A stretch of 64,000 nt of DNA from Desulfovibrionaceae bacterium (GTDB taxonomy: Bacteria; Desulfobacterota; Desulfovibrionia; Desulfovibrionales; Desulfovibrionaceae): NCBI GenBank assembly GCA_016932995.1, contig JAFGBU010000010.1, forward strand, positions 1-64,000. The letters run 5' to 3'. The first letter of the stretch is position 1, and each line of letters starts with the position of its first letter. The position numbers were made by a program, and so were the translations under genes. Of the stretch, positions 1-13,033 are shown in pieces. The notes beneath the pieces are model-generated. The model was not told the DNA's origin. It did not search any database and saw only the letters and a program-made list of their open reading frames with translations.

Positions 1-2
1 CC

Positions 3-65
3 GGGATCGACCGCCTGGGCATCGTGGCCGAGCCGGTGGACCGAGAGGCCGGGAAAAAACCCTAG
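3..65 (+). CDS. C-terminal end of an ExbD/TolR-like protein (5' truncated)
   Basis: An open frame enters from the left edge and ends at a TAG at 63-65, giving twenty residues that read roughly GIDRLGIVAEP then a charged tail. ExbD/TolR periplasmic domains commonly end with a strand of the form GI-x-R-hydrophobic-G-hydrophobic-x-TEP, which this resembles. The next gene starts 46 bases downstream on the same strand and has a TonB-like N-terminus, as expected for an exbB-exbD-tonB unit. The call rests on a very short stretch plus this context, so it is tentative. Confidence 0.4.
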   Translation, partial: GIDRLGIVAEPVDREAGKKP

Positions 66-111
66 ACGCCCGAGGCCGCGGGGCCGGCCTTGGGAGGGGC
101 CTGATACGGCG

Positions 112-1569
112 ATGCGCGCGATCTGCTGGACACTGTCCATCATGCTGCACGCCCTGGCGCTCTGGGTGATGCTTCTGGTCGTGGCCGCGCCCGACCTGGG
201 CCAGGGCCCCCTGTTGACCGTGGACATCAGGCGTCCCGAGCCCGCGGCCAAGGCCCAGCCGCCCCCAGAAGCGCCCGTGGTCGAGCCCAAGGCCGCGCCC
301 CCGAGGCCCCGGACCCTGCCCGCCGGACCCATGGCCCCGCCGAGCTTCGCGCCGGAGCCGGCGCCGGAGCCCGTGGTCAAGCCCGAGCCGGCCCCAAAGG
401 CCCGGCCCGCCCCGCCTCCGGACGTGGTCGAGATCAGCCCGGTCAAAAAGGGCGTGGCCCTGCCGACCTACAAGGCCACGCAAAAGGAGTACGAGGAGTT
501 CGCCAAGAGCGGCGGGGTGGTGACCATTGACGAGCCCGCCCTGCGCGGGGCCAAGACCAGGTTCGGCCAGCTCGTCGGGTTCTACACCTACACCACCGAG
601 GAGTTCGTGGGCCAGTACCTGACCGCCGACGGCCTGCACAGCGTGAGCATAGTCGACGCCAGGGATACCCCGCACCAGGCCCTGCTCATACACGACTCCA
701 AGTCCGGCCTGTTGCGCAGGCTCAAAAAGTTCGGAAAGTACGTGTACACCTACGGGCCGTCCCTGAACCAGGACGAGCCGGTGGAGGGCTCGGTGACCTT
801 CCTGGCCGACGGCGACCACATCCACAGGATCATCTGGATGGGCAAGGACGGCCAGGCCCAGTTCCCGACCAAGATCCACTTCCGCGAGGAGGCCGTCCGG
901 TTCAAGAGCCGGGGCCTGCGCCTGACCGGGACCCTGGTCCGGCCCCCGGGACCCGGACCGCACCCGGCCGTGGTCTACCTGCCCGGACGCGGCTGCGCGC
1001 CGCCCAAGATGGCCCAGGCCTTTGCCAGGACCCTGGGCGAGCAGGACCTCGCGGTCCTGGTGTTCAAGGACCGCGAGTGCGTCCAGGGCCAGACCCTGCC
1101 CCAGGACCAGGGCCTGGCCCTGGCCGCGGAGGACGCCCTGGCCGGGCTCAGGCTGCTCAAAAAGATCGACGGCCTGGATCCGTCAAGGCTGGGCTTCTGG
1201 GGAAGCGGCGAGGGCTCCCTGGCCGCCCTCAGGGCGGCCGCCAGCGACGACTCCGGCCGCAGGGACAAAAGGGGCGACACGGCCTTCGTGGTCTGCGCCC
1301 TGTCGGCCAAGGACAGCGGCCTGCCCGCGCCGGAGCGGAGCGATCTGGCGGCCACAAAGGCCCCCTGCCTGTGGCTGTTTTCCGGGGAAAACCCCGGCCT
1401 GCGCTGGCGCGGCTACCTGGACCTGGTGGACGATCTCCGCGACAGGGAGATGAAGCCGTTCACGGTCGTGCTCATGCCCGAGGAGGCCGGGGGGCCGAAG
1501 CAAAAGGACGTGGACAGGCTCGTCTCCGGCTACGCGGCCATCGCCGGGCCCTGGATACAGAGGCGCTGA
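112..1569 (+). CDS. TonB-like N-terminus fused to an alpha/beta-hydrolase-fold domain
   Basis: 485 residues. Residues 1-27 are a transmembrane segment containing S-x3-H (Ser9, His13), the pattern that lets TonB couple to ExbB/ExbD. Residues 35-110 are a Pro/Ala/Lys/Glu-rich linker of the kind that spans the periplasm. Residues about 120-275 are a beta-rich region I do not recognise. Residues about 280-485 look like a dienelactone-hydrolase-type alpha/beta hydrolase (strand, PGRGCAP loop, nucleophile elbow). The elbow reads G364-S365-G366-E367-G368, so the usual nucleophile serine at the centre of G-x-S-x-G is a glycine; the fold may be non-catalytic. The normal TonB C-terminal domain is absent. 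A GGGAGG stretch lies upstream of the ATG, and the preceding gene end looks like ExbD. Inference: an envelope energy-coupling or sensing protein rather than a standard TonB. Confidence 0.65.
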   Translation: MRAICWTLSIMLHALALWVMLLVVAAPDLGQGPLLTVDIRRPEPAAKAQPPPEAPVVEPKAAPPRPRTLPAGPMAPPSFAPEPAPEPVVKPEPAPKARPAPPPDVVEISPVKKGVALPTYKATQKEYEEFAKSGGVVTIDEPALRGAKTRFGQLVGFYTYTTEEFVGQYLTADGLHSVSIVDARDTPHQALLIHDSKSGLLRRLKKFGKYVYTYGPSLNQDEPVEGSVTFLADGDHIHRIIWMGKDGQAQFPTKIHFREEAVRFKSRGLRLTGTLVRPPGPGPHPAVVYLPGRGCAPPKMAQAFARTLGEQDLAVLVFKDRECVQGQTLPQDQGLALAAEDALAGLRLLKKIDGLDPSRLGFWGSGEGSLAALRAAASDDSGRRDKRGDTAFVVCALSAKDSGLPAPERSDLAATKAPCLWLFSGENPGLRWRGYLDLVDDLRDREMKPFTVVLMPEEAGGPKQKDVDRLVSGYAAIAGPWIQRR

Positions 1570-12151: not shown

Positions 12152-12970
12152 TCACCTGCCCAGGCCGGCGAAAAATCCGTCCAGGCCCCGGGCGTAGTCC
12201 TCCCCGCTCTCGATCAGGCCCGCGTTGTGGCCCCCGGAGAGGCGCAGAAAGGTCTTTTTGCCCCCATAGGCCTCGAAGAGCCGCCTGCCGTGCTCAAAGG
12301 GCGCCACCTCGTCCTCCGGGCTGTGGGCGATGAGCACCGGGCAGTCTATGTCCCTGAGCCTGGCCAGGGTGTCGTACTTGAAACGGCAGAGCATGCGCAC
12401 CGGCAGAAAGGGATATATCTCCGCGCCGAGGTCGGCCGCGGAGGTGAAGGCCGACTCCAGTATCAAACCCGCCGGCCGGACCCGGGCGGCCAGGTCGGCG
12501 GCCACGGCCGCGCCCAGGGAGCGGCCCATTATCACCACCTCGGAGGGGGCCGCGCCCTTGACCTTGGTCAGCCAGTCCCAGGCCGCCCGGGCGTCGGCGT
12601 AGGTCCCGGGCTCAGAGGGCCGGCCCTGGCTGCGGCCGTACCCGGCATAGTCGAAAATGAACACCGACAGCCCGAGCCGATTGAGCAGGGCCAGGGTCTC
12701 CAGCCGATTGGACATGTTGCCCGCGTTGCCGTGGCAGAACAGGACCGCGGCCCGGGCCCGGGCCGCGGGCACGAACCAGCCGTGCAGCTTGAGCCCCCGG
12801 GAGTCGGAAAACACGACCTCCTCATGCTCGAGGCCCACGTCCCCGGGCCCGGCAACAAGGCCCTTGGTGGGGAAAAAGACCATGCCGGCCTGGAAGAAGT
12901 AGACGAAGGCCGCGAGGCAGACCCAGCCCAAGGCCGCGATCAGGGCCGCGGAAATCAGAACCCGCCACAT
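12152..12970 (-). CDS. Membrane-anchored alpha/beta hydrolase (Bem46/YfhR-like)
   Basis: 272 residues from the ATG at 12970, which follows TGGAGGTCCA; an upstream in-frame start at 12997 has no such site. An N-terminal hydrophobic helix (about 4-28) anchors it. The hydrolase core has the HGNAGN oxyanion region, nucleophile elbow GRSLGA, an acid in HSPEDEVAP and the catalytic histidine in SGGHNAG, so the Ser-Asp-His triad is complete. The family contains esterase-like proteins of uncertain substrate. It converges on the sensor kinase (17 bases between stops) and is divergent from the CBS-ACT gene. Confidence 0.87.
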   Translation of the reverse strand: MWRVLISAALIAALGWVCLAAFVYFFQAGMVFFPTKGLVAGPGDVGLEHEEVVFSDSRGLKLHGWFVPAARARAAVLFCHGNAGNMSNRLETLALLNRLGLSVFIFDYAGYGRSQGRPSEPGTYADARAAWDWLTKVKGAAPSEVVIMGRSLGAAVAADLAARVRPAGLILESAFTSAADLGAEIYPFLPVRMLCRFKYDTLARLRDIDCPVLIAHSPEDEVAPFEHGRRLFEAYGGKKTFLRLSGGHNAGLIESGEDYARGLDGFFAGLGR

Positions 12971-13033
12971 TGGACCTCCAATCCCGTCTTGCCGCACAAG
13001 GTGAACTTTCTAACTTTATTATTTTATTACGAC

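Follow-up and report, generated by a model that had tools for sequence, protein, structure and literature searches.

What does a protein do that begins like TolA or TonB and ends in a hydrolase fold without a nucleophile? The question is raised by an open reading frame at the start of the window, as we call the whole stretch of DNA analysed here, which comprises the first 64,000 nt of contig C14 in the 49-contig genome of a bacterium of the sulfate-reducer type and cuts the upstream gene. The initial annotation described a TonB-like protein beside the end of an ExbD-like gene and suggested that ExbB/ExbD energy may be used to act on, or to sense through, the hydrolase-like domain. On the evidence set out below, the protein is probably a force transducer of the TolA/TonB kind that shares TolQR with TolA and binds through two modules, a beta domain and a hydrolase fold without catalytic function.

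Protein organization and family distribution

The reading frame at 112-1569 (+) encodes 485 amino acids, with an ATG at 112 and a stop codon at 1567-1569 (Table 1); the start at nt 3 given initially included open frame upstream of this ATG. As first described, a long Pro-rich linker is present and the first membrane helix contains an S-x3-H motif, S9-I-M-L-H13, within a hydrophobic stretch at about residues 6-25. The model of the protein places a helix at residues 2-25, with a pLDDT of about 90 in residues 1-20. Among the 33 aligned members that form our main family alignment, His13 is invariant (33/33) and Ser9 is kept in 30, the remaining three having Ala, and this conservation rules out a chance occurrence of the motif. 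Within the window, it was found in only this one of the five reading frames of at least 150 amino acids with an early hydrophobic helix. The full SHLS motif is partial, with Leu at +7 in 20 of the 33 members and a Ser at +11 that is not conserved.

Residues 34-40 read xEVDL or similar in most relatives in the same alignment, and the TolA starts of related genomes show VYTVDLVSL or similar at the matching position. This segment resembles the corresponding segment of TolA and appears to be motor-box-like, a name taken from PMC12204202, passages of which describe TolA and TonB as docking on their motors via the S-x3-H helix plus a strand after the helix.

Table 1. Features of the locus at the start of the window.
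Feature	Residues	Position (nt)	Strand	Basis
3' end of tolR (ExbD-family) gene; contig starts inside		1-66	+	nt 3-66 = GIDRLGIVAEPVDREAGKKP-stop, as in TolR C-termini of relatives
TolA/TonB-like transducer (predicted) with beta domain and pseudo-hydrolase	1-485 (485 aa)	112-1569	+	
N-terminal transmembrane helix with S9-x3-H13	1-25	112-186	+	conservation in 33-row alignment; model helix 2-25
Motor-box-like strand LLTVDIR	34-40	211-231	+	comparison with relatives and TolA starts
Pro-rich linker, putatively periplasmic	42-121	235-474	+	sequence; columns poorly conserved in 33-row alignment
Middle beta domain (predicted), unnamed	145-263	544-900	+	conserved columns; alignment of 34 domains; low-confidence models
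C-terminal alpha/beta-hydrolase fold without nucleophile	264-485	901-1566	+	profile against PDB; strand/helix order of model
Former nucleophile elbow G364-S365-G366-E367-G368	364-368	1201-1215	+	profile alignments; column counts
Cys295, probably disulfide-bonded to Cys323 (1078-1080)	295	994-996	+	column counts; bond inferred

The 485-residue protein belongs to a real family. It matches 57 of the 199 genomes of its own taxonomic family at E 0.001 or better, the weakest of these matches covering the low-complexity linker only. Full-length relatives in many genomes rule out a gene fusion or assembly artefact. A profile built from 34 middle domains matched 87 of 347 genomes of the order, in 18 of 59 genera, and only four genomes in a 395-genome draw from the phylum, all of them from the window's own family. 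Some relatives consist of the helix and the middle domain and end there, the hydrolase fold being absent, and in others nothing but the middle domain is present, in several cases preceded by what looks by eye like a signal peptide.

The adjacent motor genes

The end of the preceding gene had been likened to ExbD. It does belong to the ExbD/TolR family, but relatives with the same C-terminus as the gene at nt 3-66 score as TolR with NCBIfam, and ExbBD as the partner motor was accordingly replaced by TolQR on the curated models. In the related genomes with an adjacent motor gene whose locus was read, the gene comes directly after tolQ-tolR; TolR there passes the cut-off of TIGR02801, and TolQ falls just short of that of TIGR02796 (220.4 of 221 bits). 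Nucleotides 1-90 of the window reappear with 99% identity where contig C25 of the same genome begins, followed there by tolA-tolB-pal, of which TolA and Pal score over the NCBIfam cut-off and TolB under it (272.5 of 343.15 bits). Contig C9, which may belong to either of the two loci of this genome, ends with tolQ (210.4 bits against a cut-off of 221) and a tolR gene of which the first half is present; no miaB-like gene was seen beside tolQ in the fetched loci. Adjacency in the window's genome hence rests on 66 nt of tolR, the rest of the pair being missing from the assembly.

Across the 64 family-positive genomes, all of which have an ExbD-family protein, adjacency was scored as an ExbD/TolR match within 200 nt of the gene. 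Such a match lies 30-194 nt away in 24 genomes and was not found in the other 40. In 20 of the 64, the only ExbD-family match is non-adjacent; these include three single-contig genomes (G047, G237 and G205) as well as the window's own genome, whose copy is cut by the assembly, and G266 may be a like case, with its gene 99 nt from a contig end. Given the invariant His13, the near-invariant Ser9 and the adjacent motor pair in 24 of 64 genomes, and since neither of the two outcomes named initially as refuting the idea was observed, coupling of the protein to an ExbB/ExbD-type motor, TolQR by curated models, is well supported. The idea that ExbB/ExbD energy drives the protein thus holds for motor coupling as such, but the motor would be TolQR, and 20 of the 64 genomes offer a single, non-adjacent protein of the ExbD/TolR type. 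If the conserved helix does bind the motor, the genomes with a single TolR would share the TolQR of TolA. No partner of the 485-residue protein was found in this analysis.

Two tolQR copies in one genome

We fetched both tolQR copies from 18 genomes, copy A lying beside the gene and copy B elsewhere. A script reading placed a TolA-like start after copy B in 16 of the 18, whereas L093 and L107 could not be read clearly; one stretch that extends further shows tolA, tolB and pal behind copy B. Identity between the two copies is 92-99.9% in 12 of the 18, although two of these comparisons span only 468 and 229 nt, and 72-80% in the remaining six. In one genome (G138) they match in two pieces of 99.0%, with extra DNA between the genes of the B copy. 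Between species, A copies are 74-89% identical (45 comparisons, 10 genomes). Identity stops sharply at the pair, as flanks outside tolQ-tolR score 44-53%, i.e., they are unalignable. In a tree of 33 rows, the A and B copies of one genome are sisters with 99-100% bootstrap in 10 of 15 genomes, and in the other five they split into an A clade and a B clade.

Near-identical pairs with unrelated flanks point to gene conversion as the simplest account, which would also explain why the window's contig breaks at tolR. Repeated, independent and recent duplications, with motor sharing incidental, appear an unlikely origin of the pairs. One chromosomal site, with the order kinase gene, [tolQ-tolR], gene, kinase and NarL-type regulator, has the pair in some genomes and lacks it in several others, and presence of the pair takes four changes on the protein tree, gain and loss not being polarised; both observations fit duplication. 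However, two genera, that of the window (where 66 nt of tolR are seen) and g5, have the pair in the same position next to the gene, and the sharp end of identity at tolQ-tolR also speaks against it. Duplication bears solely on how the pairs arose and is compatible with the force-transducer reading, to which we return below.

Comparison with TolA, TonB and other transducers

The family shares with TolA of the Tol-Pal system the S-x3-H helix, the motor-box-like strand, the Pro-rich linker and the TolQR motor. It differs from TolA in lacking any TolA/TonB C-terminal domain that we could find, in ending in an unnamed beta domain and a pseudo-hydrolase, and in standing outside tolA-tolB-pal; in the window's genome that cluster is on contig C25 and our gene on C14.

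Helix and linker are likewise shared with TonB, and the protein might be a TonB paralogue serving uptake through TonB-dependent receptors, its unusual C-terminus still touching them. Searched as a single sequence, the protein matches no Pfam family, and its NCBIfam matches all lie far below threshold, a hydrolase model ranking first; the TonB matches, in NCBIfam and the PDB, are weak and cover helix and linker. Receptor plug domains occur in 19 of 25 genomes tested, as a paralogue would have it, but six of these 25 protein-bearing genomes gave no plug-domain match and the adjacent motor is TolQR by curated models. The TonB C-terminal domain (PF03544/TIGR01352) was absent from the family matches of the window protein and the 33 members, whereas the control, TIGR01352, matches TolA on C25. 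We regard a TonB paralogue as improbable, and the best reading of these comparisons is that the family may work like TolA and TonB but is neither.

The nearest published analogues are the vWA force transducers in section 8 of PMC12204202, which lie beside tolQR-like genes and have an SHLS-type helix, a disordered linker with a motor box and a globular end unrelated to TolA or TonB. Our family has the same motor-type helix, motor-box-bearing linker, kind of neighbors and absence of a TolA/TonB end, but its end is a lineage-specific beta domain with an alpha/beta-hydrolase fold, and no vWA domain was matched among the 33 members. In the text of PMC12204202 the string "desulfo" is absent and "hydrolase" occurs once, about TolB homologues. 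The literature covered, which took in few subscription papers and in which PMC12204202 and PMC9389320 were represented by passages, yielded no description of this protein or its family, of a hydrolase fused to TonB or TolA, or of gene conversion in tolQR.

The C-terminal hydrolase fold lacks a nucleophile

The hydrolase-type fold with Gly in place of the nucleophile, recognized in the initial annotation, is borne out. Residues 268-399 in a profile of 33 relatives matched PDB entries for alpha/beta hydrolases, most strongly 9pjb_A (E 1.2e-15), and in two alignments the GxSxG of solved proteins falls on G364-S365-G366-E367-G368, or G-x-G-x-G in the family. Across the 33 rows, the nucleophile column holds Gly in 21, Asp in seven, Asn in two, Pro and Arg in one each and a gap in one, with Ser or Cys in none; no relative was found that keeps the serine and lacks the S-x3-H motif. 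Eight of the 33 members match Hydrolase_4 (Pfam) singly at E 0.1 or better. Dienelactone hydrolases had been proposed for aligning the elbow; identity with that group was rejected, the profile matches spanning many hydrolase groups with an MHETase-like protein as the best. The predicted full-length structure agrees, with a stretch of beta structure followed by strands and helices in the order typical of an alpha/beta hydrolase, but it is poor (pLDDT 46.5), and its Foldseek matches to S9 peptidases were for this reason used for the fold only.

The family thus resembles Hydrolase_4, MHETase-like and dienelactone hydrolases by profile and differs from them in the lost nucleophile, the unconserved His and its fusion behind a transducer helix. 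That the domain retains an enzymatic activity, gated by motor force and relying on a nucleophile at another site (e.g., the conserved Cys323), seems to us very improbable. Of the 33 rows, 29 have both Cys295 and Cys323 and one is without the domain, an acidic residue occurs near the acid position in 15 (Asp in 10, Glu in five) and column 474 holds His in 16. Nevertheless, this last column is Tyr, Phe or Leu in 13 rows and Tyr in the window protein, so that no catalytic His is conserved across the alignment, and the two cysteines probably form a disulfide bond. Because the nucleophile is gone in all rows and the fold is absent from short members, the hydrolase fold is most likely a non-catalytic binding module. 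The suggestion that the protein acts on or senses through this domain is therefore upheld in that the fold is real, and weakened by these same two losses.

As for sensing, the only sign is the neighboring histidine kinase genes: these and a NarL-type regulator gene lie on either side of the gene in the window, as they do in a single related genus, but orphan members stand among unrelated genes (a response regulator with a methyltransferase-like gene, a hydrogenase, or neither), and we see little prospect that the protein is a sensor input for the kinases by which TolQR energy reports the envelope state.

Elsewhere in the window, about 10 kb away, an intact alpha/beta hydrolase (12152-12997, -), a catalytic contrast to the dead fold, with a GRSLG elbow and a Hydrolase_4 match aligns to the same part of the family's C-terminal profile (E 8e-10, one-sequence search).

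A conserved middle domain, predicted all-beta

Between linker and hydrolase fold lies what, from the alignment, is a separate and better conserved domain that is absent from the initial annotation. The invariant columns of the 33-row alignment, G167, D195, R202 and G226, all fall in residues 145-263 and none in the hydrolase. The model predicted for this domain has beta strands only, although its confidence is low (pLDDT 61.4). Kinship with known folds was rejected: Pfam and PDB profile searches with the 34-domain alignment gave no match of note, no NCBIfam relative was found, and the best Foldseek match of the model, 2jmb, is not significant (E 0.05). These results define a lineage-specific domain, presumably periplasmic, with no relative found in Pfam, NCBIfam or the PDB. 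Since the hydrolase lacks its nucleophile family-wide and is absent from short members, the middle domain is more likely than the hydrolase to be the core of function.

A probable force transducer sharing TolQR with TolA

In the force-transducer reading, the proton-driven TolQR motor would be bound by the S-x3-H helix and the strand after it, the Pro-rich linker would cross the periplasm, and the globular end, made of the lineage-specific beta domain (about 145-263) and the catalytically dead alpha/beta-hydrolase domain, would bind a wall or outer-membrane partner, which would then feel the TolQR pull. The motor would be shared with TolA, either as the sole genomic copy or through a second, adjacent pair that is often near-identical to the tol-pal copy. 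The persistence of the middle domain where the hydrolase is absent, and the S-x3-H and motor-box-like segment shared with TolA, count in favor. Against it stand Ala for Ser9 in three of 33 members and the poor models (pLDDT 46 and 61), and against a shared motor the divergence of the tolQR copies to 72-80% in six of 18 genomes, by which sameness of the motor is not always kept.

A protein that looks made for pulling by TolQR but has such end domains hints at a mechanical role in the envelope that has yet to be described. More tentatively, and as a possibility that we hold well short of probable, it could be a third PMF-driven transducer of the Desulfovibrionales, competing with TolA for one TolQR pool kept interchangeable by conversion and gripping an envelope partner via the new beta domain, with the dead hydrolase as a mechanical handle. 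Among the few proteins presumed to be driven by 5:2 proton-driven motors, the family would bring in an unrecorded end-module, and it would provide naturally occurring genomes whose single TolQR has to work with more than one transducer, where motor sharing is testable by simple deletions.

Further observations at family loci

Downstream of the gene in the window are a response regulator gene and an HD-GYP/NosR-like gene. In one metagenome-assembled genome (MC-06; L009 and L010) the gene is broken between two contigs whose ends share a short identical sequence, and at this same locus the upstream kinase gene and the gene have no tolQR between them. One member (L076, in G200), which comes from a different family within the order, has a C-terminal domain that looks even more degraded, its elbow reading W-T-E-P. 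Several family members (among L063-L065, L068, L051 and L076) adjoin periplasmic [NiFeSe]/[NiFe] hydrogenase or hydrogenase-maturation genes, with hydrogenase small subunits beside short forms of two genera and maturation proteases beside longer forms of two others. Finally, stand-alone, secreted-looking copies of the middle domain (L069, L071 and L072) each adjoin a similar gene with a repeat-like sequence, which we take to be of the HAF type, in all three loci.
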